From an uncultured Tateyamaria sp. (GTDB lineage: Bacteria > Pseudomonadota > Alphaproteobacteria > Rhodobacterales > Rhodobacteraceae), in assembly GCF_947504105.1 (NCBI RefSeq), contig NZ_CANNGP010000018.1, positions 1 through 64,000 of the forward strand: 64,000 nt of DNA, in the 5' to 3' direction. Position 1 is the stretch's first letter. Every line of letters begins with the position of its first letter. Position numbers and translations under genes: made by a program. Shown here piece by piece: positions 58 to 6,576 of the stretch. Under the pieces are notes generated by a model. That model was not told where the DNA came from. It saw only the letters and a list, made by a program, of their open reading frames with translations, and searched no databases.

Positions 58-513
58 TCAGGGGGCTGGGTCAGTCCCTTCCGCTCCTACTCTTTTCTTG
101 AAATCCAAAACCTTCTTGTACTGCTCAAGGTCAAGAGAAGATGGATCGACTTTTGAAGTTGAAAAGTAGAACTGAATTTTTAACTCTTGTTGCTCCTTCC
201 AGATAGCTAGTGCATCGTTGTACTCTTCCTCCGTACCGGATGATGCTACACCCGTATCAGAGCCAAAATAGAACCCCATTAAACCTAGATATATTTCGTA
301 CTCGCCTATCTGTTTTGTGATCACCTCTTGCGATCGGCCTGAAATACCCGATGAAGTATGCGTTTCCCAGAAAATCGGATCCAAATAGAATCCAAGCAAG
401 TTGCCTGTATCGACGTTGATCTCTTCACAAACTCGTTTTACAAGGGCGCGTTCTTCTTTCAAATCGCCGGGCGACGAAACAAAAACCCGGATACCTAAAA
501 CACTCTTTACCAT
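58..513 (-). CDS. DUF4062-domain protein, probably C-terminally truncated
   Basis: A 151-residue protein with an N-terminal DUF4062 signature: IRVFVSSPGDLKEER at residues 8-22, a GLMGFYFGS strand near 78-86 and SGTEEEYNDAL near 92-102. DUF4062 domains resemble TIR-like or nucleotide-binding folds and usually form the N-terminus of longer proteins, some linked to defence or signalling. Here the family-like sequence runs to KKRVGAEG and then ends after TDPAP, where relatives usually continue with an aromatic-rich segment; I infer loss of the 3' part. The start codon is 3 bases beyond the thyX stop, so it is probably read from the thyX transcript. The DNA is AT-richer than the neighbours, consistent with transfer. 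Function unknown. Confidence 0.75.
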   Translation of the reverse strand: MVKSVLGIRVFVSSPGDLKEERALVKRVCEEINVDTGNLLGFYLDPIFWETHTSSGISGRSQEVITKQIGEYEIYLGLMGFYFGSDTGVASSGTEEEYNDALAIWKEQQELKIQFYFSTSKVDPSSLDLEQYKKVLDFKKRVGAEGTDPAP

Positions 514-516
514 TCC

Positions 517-1422
517 TCAACCAATTACCCCCATAAACTCCCGCCATTCCCCCTTGGACATGCCGGAATTCTCCTGCGTTACCTCTTCACCTTTCAACAT
601 TCTCTGAATACACGCAAGAGCTGTAGCGCTTAATGTTGCACCACCCATACGGTAGTCCTCGAACGCCTTATACGCCGCAGGCACCCAATCCTTGACCATT
701 TCGCAAATCGCATCTGCATAAACGCGGATTTCGTATTGCGCGTGGGCGTCCGCGCGCAGGCGGAGGAAGTGGAAGAGGTTGTGCAGGTCCACTTTCCAAT
801 ACCATTGGGTGTAGATATTGGCGGGCAGGTTCATGCGCGCCAGCTCTCGCGCGAGGCCCTGTTGGCCGTCCTGGGAAATCATCTCTTCGTAATGGTCATA
901 GGACCGCATGGCGTCGTCGCGCAGGTAGTTGAGGACGCGTTGGGCTTCTTCGCCTGTCAGCGCTTCGCCCCGGCCCTGGTTGTTGACCACCGATTGGGCG
1001 GCAAGCGCGTCGGGTTCGGGGATGTAGAATTCGCGATCGAGGATCGAGTAGCGGGCGGAGTATTCGTTCACGTTGGCCGTGCGGTGGCGGATCCACTGCC
1101 GGGCGACGAAGACGGGCAGTTTGACGTGCAGCTTGATCTCGCACATCTCGAACGGGGTCGAGTGCCAGTGGCGCATGAGGTAGCGGATCAGCCCTTCGTC
1201 GTTCTGGACGGATTTGGTGCCCTTGCCATAGCTGACGCGCGCGGCCTGGCAGATGGCGCTGTCGTCGCCCATGTAGTCGATGACGCGGACAAAGCCGTGG
1301 TCGAGCACGGGTTGGGCTTTGTAGAGATGCGCTTCCATGCCGGGGACGGTGGCACGCAGCGTGGGCTGCGTGTGGCTGCGCAGCTCTTCGATTTCGGCAA
1401 GCTGTTCGGGGCTGAGCGGCAT
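517..1422 (-). CDS. thyX: FAD-dependent thymidylate synthase ThyX
   Basis: Flavin-dependent thymidylate synthase (301 residues) that methylates dUMP to dTMP using methylenetetrahydrofolate and NAD(P)H, in the cytoplasm. The diagnostic RHRx7S motif is visible: RHR at 112-114 and Ser122, inside [16 protein letters not shown]. Other family segments include [13 protein letters not shown] near 81-93 and the C-terminal [27 protein letters not shown] region (only partly quoted here). The length is normal for the alphaproteobacterial form. The ATG at 1420-1422 begins a natural N-terminus [14 protein letters not shown]. The last hundred bases are AT-richer than the body of the gene and lead directly into the DUF4062 gene. 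Confidence 0.96.
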
Positions 1423-1629
1423 GGGGCGCGTCCTTTATCCACAGAATCTATCAGGCCTACACCTTATATTGTGGATTGGCTGATGAGAACCGCTAGATCG
1501 GGGTCGTTTTTTGGCAACGGTTCACGGGCGGTGCGAATCAGTACGATCACGAAACCGTTGACTTTGGGGGGGTTACGGCGCTTTCTTGCCACAAAAGAGG
1601 CAGTACATAGACCGCAAAGGTTTTCAGGC
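1423..1629. promoter_or_regulatory. Divergent intergenic region between thyX and the lipoprotein/Slam pair
   Basis: A 207-base non-coding interval between two divergent transcription units, so it should carry promoters for both. A TTGACT hexamer around 1558-1563, followed by a G-run, could be a -35 element for the plus-strand lipoprotein, but I see no convincing -10 hexamer. No operator could be named. Confidence 0.35.
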
Positions 1630-2619
1630 ATGAAACGGATAGTAGCAGTGTGCGCACTGACCGCGCTGGTCGCGGCGTGTGGCAATGGCCCTCGCACGGA
1701 TGAAGACGAGACGGATGCTGGCGGAACGCCGACGGATCCCGGCGACTCTACAATTACAGTTCCAGCAACAATTGCGAACGATCTTTCGGGTTTTACTTTC
1801 GTTCCGGATCCGTCTGATCCGAGTGGCGGTACGTTGACCGTGGAGGGTGTGTTTCTTGACGACGACCTTCCCGCGTCCACTTACCAACGTCGACCCGGCC
1901 TTGATGTTCCGGGATACGTTGCTTTCACGGCGCAGGATGACGCAATTGACCAACACACTATAGCGTTGGTGCAATCGCTCAACGGCACGCGAGCCGGGGT
2001 CATTGTAACCGGCGGTCAGTTCGGGACCTACAATGGCGGCGCTGCCTTTGCACGGAACGGGGATTTCGACAGACCGCCTCTAACCGAAGAAACTGGACAG
2101 GTCAGCTATGCTGGCACCTATGTCGGCGTCACAAACCTTGAAGGCGACGATACCGATCTGTTGCCATTTCCGGCAGATCGCGATCCCAGCACCCGACCGG
2201 GTCAGGCGGCCGTCGTGACAGGCGAGGTCTTTCTGAACGTCGACTTTTCCGACAATGCTGTAAATGGTGTAATCTTCAACCGTGTACTCGACTTGAATGA
2301 CGACGATGTGTTCGACGTGATGGCGCCTGGCGAGACAACGTCGGACGTGGGCAACCTGCAATTAGACCCCTCGACCATCGACGAAAACGGAGCGTTTGAT
2401 GGTAACATTATCGCCGAAGGTGACACCAGCCGTAGCGACATCGGGGACTATGCCGGAATTTTCGGCGGCGTGGACAGCGAAGCGGTTGCCGGTGCAATCT
2501 TTGTCGCAGACCACTTGCTAGACGGCACAAGTGCCGAGGAAGAATATGGCGTCTTCGTCCTTGGACGCTGCGGTGGTCCCTTAGAGAGTGCAGCGATCTG
2601 CGCCGACGTGGATGGTTAG
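1630..2619 (+). CDS. TbpB-like surface lipoprotein, likely Slam client
   Basis: A 329-residue predicted lipoprotein. The N-terminus MKRIVAVCALTALVAAC is a lipoprotein signal peptide with lipobox VAAC (Cys17), followed by a charged, Pro/Gly/Asp-rich linker. The rest is beta-rich. Near the C-terminus, YAGIFGGVDSEAVAGAIFVA has the G-x-F-x-G-x(n)-A-x-x-x-G-x-F pattern of the barrel found in transferrin-binding-protein-B-like lipoproteins. The gene overlaps the downstream Slam-type gene by 8 bases, the arrangement expected for a surface lipoprotein and its dedicated translocator. The frame extends upstream across thyX, but the signal peptide places the start at ATG 1630. The ligand (metal, haem, host or environmental protein) cannot be told from sequence. 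Confidence 0.8.
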   Translation: MKRIVAVCALTALVAACGNGPRTDEDETDAGGTPTDPGDSTITVPATIANDLSGFTFVPDPSDPSGGTLTVEGVFLDDDLPASTYQRRPGLDVPGYVAFTAQDDAIDQHTIALVQSLNGTRAGVIVTGGQFGTYNGGAAFARNGDFDRPPLTEETGQVSYAGTYVGVTNLEGDDTDLLPFPADRDPSTRPGQAAVVTGEVFLNVDFSDNAVNGVIFNRVLDLNDDDVFDVMAPGETTSDVGNLQLDPSTIDENGAFDGNIIAEGDTSRSDIGDYAGIFGGVDSEAVAGAIFVADHLLDGTSAEEEYGVFVLGRCGGPLESAAICADVDG

Positions 2620-4099
2620 GTCGTTCAAGCGTAGAACGTTGCCAAGCGCCAAAGAAGCCAATTCCCCCGCGTCGGGCACTTGCGCCAAGCAGAAATGGCG
2701 CACTCTTTTGATTGCGTGTCTCACATGGCATCTGAACTCTCCGCCTTCCGGTGCAGCCGCCGACACCCAGCCGACTGAGCAGGAGCAACCTTCGTTACAA
2801 CTGTCATTGGACCATGCACGCGCTCTAGCCCACCAAGCGCTGGAGCGCGGGCGTCCAACCATTGCCATCAAGATTGCACGTGGCCTGCTGCAAGCAAATC
2901 CAAACGATACCAGTGCGCACTTTATACTCGCCTCTGCCATGGCCAGATCAGGTGACATTGCGGCGGCTCGAAAGTCGGCGGCACGCGCCTATCGCATTAG
3001 CGACAATCGGGTTGATCGAGTCGCAGCGGCACAATTTGCGGCCCGCGCATCCCTCGTTGAAAACCGGCCGACCCTTACGCAACTTTGGTTGAGGCGGGCT
3101 GCCGTTCACGCGAAAGATGAGGCAAGCCTGACGCGTATCGCGGCAGACTACAAACGTGTCCGTCAGATCAACCCCTTTTCCTTTCGGGCTAACATAGGCT
3201 TCCGTCCATCCGACAATGTAAACAACGGCGCTGACGGTGCTTTGCAAGTAATTGACGGCGTCCCCGCGGTTGGACTTCTGTCTGGAAGTGCCCAGGCTCT
3301 GGCGGGCAACATTGGAACACTCAGCGTCGACTTGAACTATAAACTGCGACGCACGGCCCAATCGGAACTAAGCCTCGGCTCCCAAATCTACGTGCGCCGT
3401 GTATGGTTGTCGTCGAGTGCCCAACGGCAGGCGCCAGACTTGGAAAACGAGGACCTAGGTAGCACATATTTCGATACTTCATTGACCCACAAATTTGCAC
3501 TGGGTGCCGAGGGCAATTCCGCCTCAATTGGTTTTGGCATCGGGCGGGCGTGGTCAGGAGGTGAAGAACGGTTCGATTTTCTGGCTTTGCGAGGATCCCG
3601 CTCAGTGCGTCTTGGCACACACACGCGGCTGAACCTGACCGCTGCAGTCGAAGATCGTACATCGGCACGCCACACAATACTCGATGAAACGCTCTACAAG
3701 CTTGGTACATCCTTGCACCACAAACGGAGCAACGGGGACTCAATCGGCCTTTCCTTGAGCCTTATTGATACAGAGTCCGACTTCAGTAACATCGATTCAG
3801 TTTCTCAAACAATTCGCGCGAGCTACGGCTTTGCAAAGGCACTGGGACCGGCCAGCATATCGACATCATTGACAATCGCGAACTCAGATTTCGATGATTA
3901 CCGGGTGGGTTTCATCGCTGTACCCGATGGCCGTCAAGATGAATCGATCTATGGCGACGTGACCTTTTTCTTTGCGGATTGGCACTATGCAGGTTTTGCG
4001 CCGTCCGTCAGACTGCGCGCCGGTCGGCGCGACAGCAATGTCAGTCGTTTCCAGAGCCGGGAATTTTCGGTGGATTTCCAGATCCGTTCATCCTTCTGA
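2612..4099 (+). CDS. Slam-type surface lipoprotein assembly modulator (DUF560)
   Basis: A predicted outer-membrane protein of about 495 residues. After a long basic N-region and hydrophobic segment (RTLLIACLTW) comes an alpha-helical TPR-like domain (about residues 60-175: DHARALAHQALERGRPTIAI, FILASAMARSGDIAAARKSA), then a beta-barrel with alternating polar and aromatic strands ending in DFQIRSSF with a terminal Phe. The C-terminal pattern W-Y-A-G-F-A-P...R...SN...F matches the DUF560 barrel of Slam proteins, which move lipoproteins to the cell surface. ATG 2612 overlaps the lipoprotein stop; an earlier start at 2588 is possible. It probably serves the adjacent TbpB-like lipoprotein. Confidence 0.8.
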   Translation: MVRSFKRRTLPSAKEANSPASGTCAKQKWRTLLIACLTWHLNSPPSGAAADTQPTEQEQPSLQLSLDHARALAHQALERGRPTIAIKIARGLLQANPNDTSAHFILASAMARSGDIAAARKSAARAYRISDNRVDRVAAAQFAARASLVENRPTLTQLWLRRAAVHAKDEASLTRIAADYKRVRQINPFSFRANIGFRPSDNVNNGADGALQVIDGVPAVGLLSGSAQALAGNIGTLSVDLNYKLRRTAQSELSLGSQIYVRRVWLSSSAQRQAPDLENEDLGSTYFDTSLTHKFALGAEGNSASIGFGIGRAWSGGEERFDFLALRGSRSVRLGTHTRLNLTAAVEDRTSARHTILDETLYKLGTSLHHKRSNGDSIGLSLSLIDTESDFSNIDSVSQTIRASYGFAKALGPASISTSLTIANSDFDDYRVGFIAVPDGRQDESIYGDVTFFFADWHYAGFAPSVRLRAGRRDSNVSRFQSREFSVDFQIRSSF

Positions 4100-4185
4100 C
4101 ATCAGACTCTCAGCGATCGTGCGTCTCGACACTACAAATACGCGTGCTACGGTTTGCGCATAGCTAACAAACGGAGGCCACCGGC

Positions 4186-4614
4186 ATGGCACTGACCTAT
4201 CTGCACACAATGGTTCGCGTAAAGGACCTGGACGCATCGATGGCATTCTACAAACTGTTGGGCCTTGAGGAGACGCGGCGGCATGACAGCGAAGGCGGAC
4301 GGTTCTCGCTGATCTTTATGGCTCCGCCCGATCAGCCGGACTGCCCGATTGAGCTGACCTATAACTGGGATGGGGATGATGCGCTGCCGGATGACAGTCG
4401 CCACTTCGGGCACCTCGCCTACCGCGTGGATAACATCTACGAGATGTGCCAGCACCTGATGGACAATGGTGTGACGATCAACCGGCCGCCCCGCGACGGA
4501 CACATGGCCTTTGTACGCTCACCCGACATTGTGTCGGTCGAGCTGTTGCAAGCCGGTGACGCCCTGCCCCCGGCCGAACCGTGGGCGAGCATGGAAAACA
4601 CGGGCCATTGGTAA
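4186..4614 (+). CDS. gloA: Lactoylglutathione lyase (glyoxalase I)
   Basis: Glyoxalase I family protein (142 residues), which isomerises the methylglyoxal-glutathione hemithioacetal to S-lactoylglutathione in the cytoplasm. Two VOC beta-alpha-beta-beta-beta modules are visible. The four likely metal ligands are in the usual positions: His in LHTMVRVKDL (residue 6), Glu in IELTYNWDG, His in FGHLAYRVDN and Glu in VELLQ. Preceded by a GGAGG-type ribosome site. Its 3' end overlaps the next gene if that gene starts at GTG 4581. Confidence 0.92.
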   Translation: MALTYLHTMVRVKDLDASMAFYKLLGLEETRRHDSEGGRFSLIFMAPPDQPDCPIELTYNWDGDDALPDDSRHFGHLAYRVDNIYEMCQHLMDNGVTINRPPRDGHMAFVRSPDIVSVELLQAGDALPPAEPWASMENTGHW

Positions 4615-5309
4615 GGACTGCGGCCTGCCTGGTCGCTTGCGTCGCCGCCTCTCCCGCAGCGGCATGTCGGCTGGCCTTGCTTTTGGCTCTTGATGTTTCG
4701 TCGTCCGTTGACGCGACCGAGGATCAATTGCAGCGGGGCGGTCTGGTGGCCGCCCTGACAGCGCCCGAAGTGCGCGCCGCTTTCTTTGCCAATGAGGCGC
4801 CCGTCGCGCTGGCCGTCTATGAGTGGTCGGGTCGATACAACCAGGAGGTTGTGCTGGATTGGACGCTGATCAACAGCCCCGCAGCATTGCTGGACGCCGC
4901 CGAGACTGTGGCGGCAAGCACGCGGTCGCACAACGAGTTCCCGACCGCGATGGGGTATGCATTGGGGTTCGGGGCCGAGATGTTGGGCCGTGCGCCGTCA
5001 TGTCTTTATCGGACGATCGATATGGCTGGCGATGGGCAAAACAACGAAGGGTTTGGCCCGCGACTTGCTTATCGTGAGTTTGCCTTTGATGATGTCACGG
5101 TGAACGGTTTGGTTGTGAATGCAGCCGAGTTTACATCGGAGACCATGTTGATCGATTTCTACAAGCGCGAGGTGCTGCGCGGTCCCGGCGCCTTTCTGGA
5201 GGTGGCGCAGGGGTTTGAAGACTATGAGCGCGCGATGCGTCGCAAGTTGGAGCGGGAGTTGACCCCGCCTGTCATTGGCGCGCTGGACCAGCGCCATCGC
5301 GGCGGATGA
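4581..5309 (+). CDS. DUF1194 (VWA-like) exported protein, copy 1
   Basis: A 242-residue DUF1194 protein with a von Willebrand factor A-like fold. A signal peptide (AACLVACVAASPAAA) precedes LALLLALDVSSSVDATE, which carries the MIDAS-like D-x-S-x-S; a second acidic strand is RTIDMAGDGQNN. The C-terminal LEVAQGFEDYERAMRRKLERE is typical of the family. The start may be GTG 4581, overlapping gloA by 34 bases, or TTG 4608. It overlaps the next gene by 4 bases, so the two paralogues are translationally coupled. Function unknown; probably periplasmic. Confidence 0.85.
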   Translation: MGEHGKHGPLVRTAACLVACVAASPAAACRLALLLALDVSSSVDATEDQLQRGGLVAALTAPEVRAAFFANEAPVALAVYEWSGRYNQEVVLDWTLINSPAALLDAAETVAASTRSHNEFPTAMGYALGFGAEMLGRAPSCLYRTIDMAGDGQNNEGFGPRLAYREFAFDDVTVNGLVVNAAEFTSETMLIDFYKREVLRGPGAFLEVAQGFEDYERAMRRKLERELTPPVIGALDQRHRGG

Positions 5310-6061
5310 GCCGCGCGGCGCTGATCGGGGCGGCGTTGCTGGCCATGGTGAGTGCAGCGGCTGACGCGGCTTGCCGACAGGCGTTGGCCCTGGGACTGGA
5401 TGTATCGGGGTCCGTCGATGTTCGTGAATACCGCCTGCAGATGGACGGGCTGGCCGCCGCGCTGGACAATGGCAAGGTACGACAGGCCTTGTTGCAGACG
5501 CCATCCGCACCGGTGCACCTGCTGGTTTATGAATGGAGCGGGCCGGAAGACCCCGCCGTAATCTTGCCCTGGACAGCCATAGAGAGTGCGGCCGTGCTGA
5601 ATGGCGTGATTGGGCAGTTGCGGGCGACTGAGCGGCGTCAGGCCAGCCCTGGCACCGCGCTGGGTCTGGCCATGCGTGAAGGCGCTGCACATCTGGCGCA
5701 ACGCCCGGACTGTTGGAAGCGCACTCTGGACCTGTCCGGGGATGGCAAGTCGAACCTGGGCATCCGCCCGGTCGACGTGAAAGCTGAGCTTCAGGACACG
5801 GGGATTACAATCAACGCGTTGGTGATCGGGACCGATGCACCCAACATGGGTGATCTGCAACAAACCGAGATGTCCGGGCTTTCAGCGTATTTCCAGAACA
5901 ATGTCATCGTTGGGTCAGACAGTTTCGTGGAAACGGCGCTGGGTTTTGAGGACTATGCTGCCGCCATGGCCCGGAAGCTGGAACGCGAGTTGGAAACACT
6001 GATCTTGGGGAGTGCTCCGACGTCGTCGTCAATCGGCGTCCCAAGCGCTGGTGATCAGTAG
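5306..6061 (+). CDS. DUF1194 (VWA-like) exported protein, copy 2
   Basis: A 251-residue paralogue of the preceding gene. The signal peptide MSRAALIGAALLAMVSAAADA is followed by ALALGLDVSGSVDVREYRLQ with the same MIDAS-like D-x-S-x-S, then LTLDLSGDGKSN-like and ALGFEDYAAAMARKLERELE segments. It begins at an ATGA overlap with copy 1 and its last 7 bases overlap the convergent ldtR stop. The two copies share architecture throughout but are clearly diverged, so the duplication is old. Function unknown. Confidence 0.87.
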   Translation: MSRAALIGAALLAMVSAAADAACRQALALGLDVSGSVDVREYRLQMDGLAAALDNGKVRQALLQTPSAPVHLLVYEWSGPEDPAVILPWTAIESAAVLNGVIGQLRATERRQASPGTALGLAMREGAAHLAQRPDCWKRTLDLSGDGKSNLGIRPVDVKAELQDTGITINALVIGTDAPNMGDLQQTEMSGLSAYFQNNVIVGSDSFVETALGFEDYAAAMARKLERELETLILGSAPTSSSIGVPSAGDQ

Positions 6062-6576
6062 ATATAGCGTATCTGGTCTGTCCAATAGCGTTCCATGCGC
6101 TTGAGCGAGGCGGTGATGTCAATGATCCCTTCAGGGCCCAATACGCCTTTGGATTGCAAGCCATCTGCGTGGCGCAGGAACAGCTCATTCACGACATCGC
6201 GGATCTTGCGCCCTTTTTCCGTCAGGCGAACTCGGACCGAACGGCGATCGATTTCGCAGCGTTGATGGTGCATGTAGCCCATTTCGACCAGCTTCTTGAG
6301 GTTGTAGCTGACATTCGAGCCCTGGTAGTAGCCGCGGCTTTTCAGCTCTCCGGCCGTCACCTCATTGTCGCCGATGTTGAACAGCAACAGCGCTTGAACT
6401 GCATTGATTTCCAGCACGCCCACGCGCTCAAATTCATCCTTGATCACGTCAAGCAACAAGCGGTGCAGCCGTTCGACCAGTGACAAGGCCTCAAGGTAAC
6501 CGACCATGAAACTGGCGTTGGCGGTTGTTTTATCGGCCATGCCTGGGACCTGGCCGATAGGGTCCTGAATGCTCAT
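6055..6576 (-). CDS. ldtR: LdtR-type MarR family transcriptional regulator
   Basis: A 173-residue winged-helix regulator. The central region (EINAVQALLLFNIGD, TAGELKSRGYYQGSNVSYN, LVEMGYMHHQRCEIDRRSVR) matches the LdtR branch of MarR proteins in alphaproteobacteria, named from Liberibacter where it controls an L,D-transpeptidase gene. The recognition helix and the D-R-R wing are intact. No L,D-transpeptidase gene is in this window, so the target here is unknown. A start 12 codons downstream (MADKTT) is also possible. Confidence 0.85.
   Translation of the reverse strand: MSIQDPIGQVPGMADKTTANASFMVGYLEALSLVERLHRLLLDVIKDEFERVGVLEINAVQALLLFNIGDNEVTAGELKSRGYYQGSNVSYNLKKLVEMGYMHHQRCEIDRRSVRVRLTEKGRKIRDVVNELFLRHADGLQSKGVLGPEGIIDITASLKRMERYWTDQIRYIY

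Follow-up and report, generated by a model that had tools for sequence, protein, structure and literature searches.

The present analysis concerns a 64,000-nucleotide stretch of DNA from an uncultured Tateyamaria sp. (contig NZ_CANNGP010000018.1, positions 1 to 64,000), referred to below as the window, and within it two overlapping genes which very likely encode a Slam pair, that is an outer-membrane pore of the type 11 secretion system (T11SS) and its cargo lipoprotein. The first gene (1630..2619, plus strand), starting with ATG at 1630 and closed by a TAG stop at 2617-2619, codes for a predicted Slam-dependent surface lipoprotein of 329 aa, recognized from its reading frame, structural model and fold search. 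The second (2612..4099, plus strand) codes for the putative Slam / T11SS outer-membrane protein of 495 aa, consisting of an N-terminal region, TPR-type helices (residues 66-186) and a predicted 14-strand barrel (189-494); ATG 2612 is its most likely start, an in-frame GTG at 2588 being the alternative, and TGA at 4097-4099 is its stop. Counted from ATG 2612 the two genes overlap by 8 bases, and a preliminary description of this DNA, which had reported a lipoprotein gene overlapping to this extent with a gene for a TPR plus DUF560 barrel protein, had the coordinates of both right. Our main conclusion, to which we assign a probability of roughly 0.8, is that these genes form a Slam / T11SS pair of the marine cluster 3 kind, which is carried as one exchangeable cassette. 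The pair is considered very likely to be of this kind because 14 of 20 aligned pore orthologues match the DUF560 family and because the fold matches of the cargo are of the TbpB/fHbp type.

The AlphaFold2 model of the pore, built from six sequences, reached a mean predicted local distance difference test score (pLDDT) of 77.5 and a predicted template modelling score (pTM) of 0.62, with pLDDT of at least 70 at 381 of the 495 residues. It contains seven long helices at residues 66-186 followed by 14 strands at 189-494, which form a single C-terminal barrel; the barrels of Slam and of OmpG have 14 strands as well. A TPR region in front of the barrel is indicated by the modelled helices together with a match of residues 71-131 to TPR_16 (E 1.4e-6, 29.1 bits, below the cut-off of 32.7), and a sequence search of the PDB with the pore returned, over its TPR region, entries such as O-GlcNAc transferase and designed repeat proteins, plus one chance row. 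The assignment to DUF560, named SlipAM in Pfam (PF04575), comes through homologues and not from the score of the window pore itself. The aligned set comprised the window, the named loci L003-L006 and 15 genus-group genomes, while L002 was omitted as lying on the same contig as G017; the five named relatives we take to represent the Rhodobacteraceae group. SlipAM matched 14 of these 20 pores at E<=0.1 (best 1.4e-11), and two pores searched singly, L036 (44.9 bits, residues 152-450, the whole domain) and L102 (35.2 bits), exceeded the cut-off of 22 bits. In the genome to which the window belongs the single match to SlipAM at E<=10 is the window pore, and none of 14 named control genomes gave a match.

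The lipoprotein begins with MKRIVAVCALTALVAAC-GNGPR, in which we read by eye a signal peptide and the lipobox VAAC at residues 14-17, with Cys17 as the lipid-bearing residue; the columns of Cys17 and Gly18 are invariant in all 20 aligned orthologues. The signal peptide and lipobox are followed by the GNGPR tag, a linker, an N-terminal beta domain (approximately residues 47-156) and a C-terminal barrel. The AlphaFold2 model of this protein, of low confidence (mean pLDDT 47, pTM 0.52), is mostly beta, with main C-terminal strands at 157-169, 194-205, 210-221, 243-250, 255-262, 272-278, 285-293 and 304-314, and an additional short one at 237-240. When it was submitted to Foldseek, the first 40 of the 50 PDB matches listed were fHbp, NHBA (as which we take entry 2lfu), TbpB, hemophilin, HphA or HpuA, the best being fHbp (E 1.5e-5). 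Proteins with barrels of the TbpB/fHbp type are surface or secreted proteins and some of them are Slam-dependent. TM-scores of these 40 matches were low (0.26-0.37 when normalised to the query, at 11-21% identity), and for this reason we place weight on their uniformity rather than on the superposition. The TbpB barrel fold proposed in the preliminary description was thus recovered, albeit on a low-confidence model; its broader proposal of a Slam pore with a TbpB-like lipoprotein is supported by fold and orthologues, except that the lipoprotein is one-lobed, resembling fHbp or hemophilin, and not two-lobed like TbpB. Neither of the outcomes which that description had named as refuting was observed, the DUF560 match of the window pore being partial and under the cut-off. 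Among the 20 orthologous cargos, family profiles matched at E<=0.1 in a few cases: TbpB_B_D in four (best 8e-6), FHBP_C in three (best 1.4e-4) and NCBIfam slam_lipo in four (best 4.4e-6). A sequence search of the PDB with the lipoprotein gave zero matches, and its profile version one chance row (E 1.9).

The pore might instead be an exporter of polysaccharide of the BcsC/PelB type, likewise built of TPR repeats and a barrel, with the lipoprotein as its accessory. BcsC is in fact the best Foldseek match of the pore model (1.6e-10), followed by OmpG and PelB, with PelBC in fifth place. We nevertheless consider this very improbable, as the model has 14 strands and seven long helices, whereas BcsC is 16-stranded and has far more repeats; SlipAM recognizes most of the orthologous pores, the partner lipoprotein has the fold matches given above, and no polysaccharide synthase gene occurs among the six neighbours with a Pfam assignment (DUF4062, ThyX, glyoxalase, two DUF1194 and MarR proteins, positions 61 to 6576).

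Within the genus group the pore was present in 16 of 20 genomes, own genome included, and in each of the 16 a lipoprotein gene is located just upstream of it; 15 of these genes were recognized by the lipobox pattern and that of G009 by its reading frame. The junctions of cargo and pore genes range from -8 to +20 nt, where the start of each pore gene was set by a script that took the closest start codon not more than 60 nt from the cargo stop and gave preference to ATG. Such an arrangement is not due to chance.

Over the 120 pairs of pore-bearing genomes mean identity was 0.43 for both the cargo (0.22-0.91) and the pore (0.24-0.90). The corresponding values for the genes flanking the pair were 0.91 for ThyX, the flavin-dependent thymidylate synthase (520..1422, minus strand, stop codon 517-519; PF02511, Thy1 2e-57), 0.90 for the glyoxalase/VOC protein (4186..4614, plus strand; PF00903, 8.4e-17) and 0.87 for the first of two DUF1194 proteins (4581..5309, plus strand; PF06707). 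Distances of cargo and pore follow each other closely (r=0.972, Mantel p=0.0001, 16 genomes), and flank distances correlate neither with those of the cargo (r=-0.18, p=0.85) nor with those of the pore (r=-0.16, p=0.79). Tree comparison gave the same picture. Cargo data accept the pore tree (approximately unbiased (AU) test, 0.12), while the flank tree is rejected both by cargo data (log-likelihood difference 1205, AU p 1.8e-53) and by pore data (1227, AU p 1.1e-50), and flank data in turn reject the cargo and pore trees (differences of 469 and 377). As a control we used LptD, an outer-membrane barrel protein encoded on another contig, whose identity to the own protein tracks that of ThyX (Spearman 0.76, p=0.001) and not that of the pore (0.05, p=0.87) in 15 genomes. 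The genomes closest to the window by LptD are G012 (93%) and G001 (88%, equalled by G017), and in the flank tree G012 and G001 are sisters with support 86; their pores share only 39% and 29% identity, respectively, with that of the window. We sorted the cassettes into types, with labels of our own, and the window, G012 and G001 bear three different ones, while one type is common to nine genomes (G002, G003, G007, G008, G010, G012, G015, G016 and G019). In short, cargo and pore look like one exchangeable cassette in a fixed slot between ThyX and glyoxalase.

The edges of the cassette could be followed in the DNA of the same three genomes. Counted per 60 nt these are 90-100% identical over the ThyX start, the 207-nt region between ThyX and cargo (1423..1629, given as plus strand) and the signal peptide; identity drops to mostly 20-60% directly after the CGNGPR tag and is back at 80-100% from the start codon of the glyoxalase gene. 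Across 16 genomes the upstream region correlates with the flanks at r=0.54 (p=0.007), as against r=0.20 with the cassette. The DNA of signal peptide and tag correlates with the cargo body at r=0.51 (p=0.0006) and with the upstream region at r=0.51 (p=0.006), with the segment of G009 slightly displaced, as the script took the Cys two residues early. That the signal peptide always stays with the flank did not hold as a general rule (signal and tag DNA against flanks, r=-0.07, p=0.62). Since the upstream region follows the flanks and the signal and tag segment is mixed, the 5' edge of the cassette varies around the signal peptide. The pair also stands out in GC content at third codon positions, 0.587 and 0.572 versus 0.698-0.780 in six neighbouring genes.

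These data bear on another reading, in which there is no exchange and diversifying selection drives a very rapid divergence of the pair where it stands. Identities as low as 22-24% inside a single genus group would agree with it. We regard it as unlikely, given the very large margins by which the flank tree is rejected, the sharp edges of the cassette, and the distribution of types, with one shared by nine genomes and three among the LptD-near window, G012 and G001.

Evidence for a fixed slot came also from genomes in which it is empty. Four of the 20 genus-group genomes have the ThyX and glyoxalase genes separated by 428 (G004), 501 (G006), 326 (G011) and 316 bp (G013), and all four keep both DUF1194 genes; ThyX and the first DUF1194 orthologue are kept in all 20. 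We extended the comparison to the family, taking 100 genomes, each of another genus, with E cut-offs of 1e-8 for the pore, 1e-60 for ThyX and 1e-40 for glyoxalase, and with adjacency rules of our own to define classes of slot. The pore was found in 53 genera. In 40 it lies between ThyX and glyoxalase (G106 being pieced from two contigs), in nine beside glyoxalase, ThyX being at another place or not detected, in two beside ThyX with glyoxalase elsewhere, and in two at another place (G056 and, as a weak match, G034). The slot is empty in 37 genera, with a ThyX-glyoxalase gap of 65-1028 bp and no pore found; of the remaining genera one has a 1.6-kb gap without a pore and nine show none of these arrangements. 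Eighteen regions of the survey, picked so as to include odd ones, were then examined by profile. Nine contained a pore, and in six of them, G056 among these, a cargo gene adjoins it. In the nine pore-free regions, among them the 2.5-kb gap of G034 and the four empty slots with a length near 1 kb, no cargo was detected, and DUF1194 is present in seven of these stretches (not in G022 and G077).

Two of the odd regions deserve separate mention. In G034 (L093) neither cargo nor pore was found by profile within the 2.5-kb gap between ThyX and glyoxalase, and in G056 (L102) a cargo-pore pair is located outside the usual slot, with no ThyX or glyoxalase within the 6-kb stretch.

On the basis of co-occurrence, the part of PMC12282271 drawn on here raises the possibility that the pair works together with ThyX, glyoxalase and DUF1194, the last as a possible cargo or sensor partner. 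They adjoin the pair in most loci, ours as well as those of that part of the paper, where 76 of 102 DUF1194 proteins are predicted to be Sec-secreted and seven to be lipoproteins. Functional partnership appears quite unlikely to us, however, when set against the pair-free genomes of the genus group, the 37 genera which keep ThyX and glyoxalase together without the pair, the DUF1194 genes in seven of nine pore-free stretches, and the independent evolution of the flank genes. Because these genes mostly stay in place without the pair and evolve independently of it, we read their co-occurrence with T11SS as a fixed address; they are probably the address of the pair and not its partners. The empty slots also argue against inferring function from the presence of ThyX, glyoxalase and DUF1194 beside the pair alone.

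A number of results count against the conclusion that an exchangeable Slam / T11SS pair is present, and they are collected here. SlipAM scores 19.4 bits on the window pore, under the cut-off of 22, as do the pores of L108 (21.3) and L034 (19.3); the preliminary description had placed DUF560 at residues 190-495, which agrees with the predicted barrel, and the sequence match covers only part of it (311-484). None of the best 50 PDB matches listed for the pore model is a Slam structure. The window lipoprotein alone has no Pfam match at E<=0.1 and reaches 12.8 bits with slam_lipo (cut-off 80), the cargo of L036, the one orthologue scored singly, has 20.5 bits with TbpB_B_D (cut-off 26), and the lipoprotein model is of the low confidence stated above. 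With respect to exchange, pore data reject the cargo tree (log-likelihood difference 56, AU p=0.002), which points either to imperfect joint exchange or to poor resolution of the cargo tree; the window joins the G012/G001 group of the flank tree with support of only 45; and the overall GC content of the pair (0.56-0.57) lies inside the range of the neighbouring genes, where a value of 0.55 occurs once. Co-divergence of cargo and pore fits a matched pair, yet it is no proof of molecular matching, because adjacency alone makes genes travel together. Finally, three of the 40 filled slots (G079, G080 and G086; L099-L101), picked for profiling for their lack of room for a cargo, have 317-417 bp from ThyX to the pore and no cargo found. 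These pores bear also on a further explanation, that the lipoprotein faces the periplasm and assists in barrel assembly rather than being cargo. Pores that lack a cargo gene speak against such a helper, weakly, because G080 and G086 gave incomplete pore matches, and so do the fold matches of the lipoprotein to TbpB/fHbp-type barrel proteins. We give this explanation very little credence.

Some features of the cargo were followed separately. From the putative lipid-bearing cysteine onward the sequence reads CGNGPR in the window (1678-1695), G012 and G001, CGDGNPF in 12 of 16 genus-group cargos, spanning all three cassette types, and CGSGNPF in G009. A search of the 20 genomes for the CGDGNPF/CGNGNPF pattern, as a candidate general sorting tag of lipoproteins, did not support such a role: it occurs once each in 13 genomes, 12 times at the cassette cargo, to which the CGDGNPF DNA pattern is confined within each of those 12 genomes. 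The thirteenth occurrence (G012, contig C9) lies in a frame whose translation does not look like that of a lipoprotein, and a reversed control pattern occurs once over the 20 genomes. Cys314 and Cys324, near the C-terminus, are shared by the cargos of types 1 and 2 and absent from type 3; in the window cargo it is possible that they form a disulfide. The idea of a hypervariable N-terminal domain was likewise abandoned, conservation being 0.80 versus 0.69 in the barrel for type 2 and 0.41 versus 0.39 for type 3. Sequence conservation, with the N-terminal domain better kept than the barrel within type 2, suggests that the ligand is kept within that type, and that the ligand or the exposed surface may change between types.

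Of the other genes around the pair, the second DUF1194 copy (5306..6061, plus strand; PF06707) directly follows the first in the window, with E-values of 3.6e-70 and 1.8e-65 for the two copies. ThyX, the left edge of the slot as glyoxalase is its right one, is adjoined near the contig end by a 151-aa DUF4062 protein (61-513, minus strand; PF13271, 1.2e-9), which may be a piece of a larger protein. A TonB-dependent receptor is absent among the six assigned neighbours, in a region limited on its left side by the contig end and examined to approximately 8.6 kb, for which reason classical nutrient piracy is not favoured. The scan for promoters and terminators was uninformative, with two sites of each versus 1.5 and 3.1 in shuffles.

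By analogy with the characterized family we infer that the pore delivers the lipoprotein to the surface. Sec would export the lipoprotein, which would receive its lipid at Cys17; Lol would bring it to the outer membrane, Skp would keep it unfolded, and its C-terminal barrel would be the part that is recognized. The pore, with its TPR helices in the periplasm and its 14-strand barrel in the membrane, would then pass it to the cell surface, where the N-terminal domain would meet a ligand. The own genome has one gene of the OmpH/Skp family (43.6 bits, cut-off 32.4). In most of the genomes compared, the slot between thyX and the glyoxalase gene has both cargo and pore, neither of them, or another version of both, while the flanks stay. 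Presumably cargo and pore are swapped jointly because the two proteins are matched. The most likely reason for such replacement may be selection on a surface protein to change, whether through recognition by phages or grazers or through a change of ligand.

Going one step further, we tentatively propose, as a possibility held at somewhat less than even odds, that the thyX/glyoxalase slot is a serotype-like locus of marine Rhodobacteraceae, in which a matched pair of surface lipoprotein and dedicated pore is swapped, lost and regained as a cassette and the surface thereby changes in a single recombination step. Homology on the 5' side could be provided by the upstream region, at times together with the signal peptide and CGxG tag, and on the 3' side by the glyoxalase gene, and the altered surface would probably let the cell escape phages or grazers. 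If so, the address would make bystanders of DUF1194 and one-carbon metabolism, and their family-wide link to T11SS would follow from it. Close relatives in which pore and cargo have been naturally exchanged behind near-identical upstream regions offer a ready test of matching and of the cargo part that decides it.

Loci of this layout are already known. In the portion of Grossman et al. 2025 (PMC12282271) used here, a syntenic marine cluster 3 T11SS locus is described in 11 strains of Rhodobacteraceae/Roseobacteraceae, with genes for a flavin-dependent thymidylate synthase, a cargo lipoprotein (10 of 11), a T11SS protein, lactoylglutathione lyase and DUF1194, the cargo having 282-375 aa and a C-terminal eight-stranded barrel (Fig. 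8 legend). Having the same gene content, the window locus is a further member of the described kind, and the setting of a Slam pair in Rhodobacteraceae is therefore already in print. What we add is the pair as one exchangeable unit in a fixed slot: unit exchange, empty slots and neighbours persisting without the pair are not reported in that portion of the paper, which describes horizontal acquisition for cluster 1 T11SS, and none of the titles listed by capped searches in part of the literature reports exchange of a Slam/T11SS cassette. The functional association of the neighbours is discussed there, and our reading of a fixed address differs from it without contradicting association. According to the same portion, all experimentally verified T11SS belong to cluster 1, marine cluster 3 is listed outside the verified set, and T11SS can also carry unlipidated cargo, e.g. 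haemophilin homologues. Among proteins of solved structure, fHbp, hemophilin and HphA are close to the lipoprotein in fold at 11-21% identity, their ligands not being implied by this. Unlike the Slam1/TbpB and Slam2/HpuA systems of Neisseria, the window pair has a one-lobed cargo, scores below cut-off and no assigned TonB-dependent receptor neighbour. It resembles them, as far as the parts of PMC9090332 and PMC5449769 used here describe these systems, in a pore of N-terminal domain plus DUF560 encoded near the gene of a barrel lipoprotein, and in the OmpH/Skp-family gene of its genome, Skp being in Neisseria the holdase of the lipoprotein which Slam passes to the surface.

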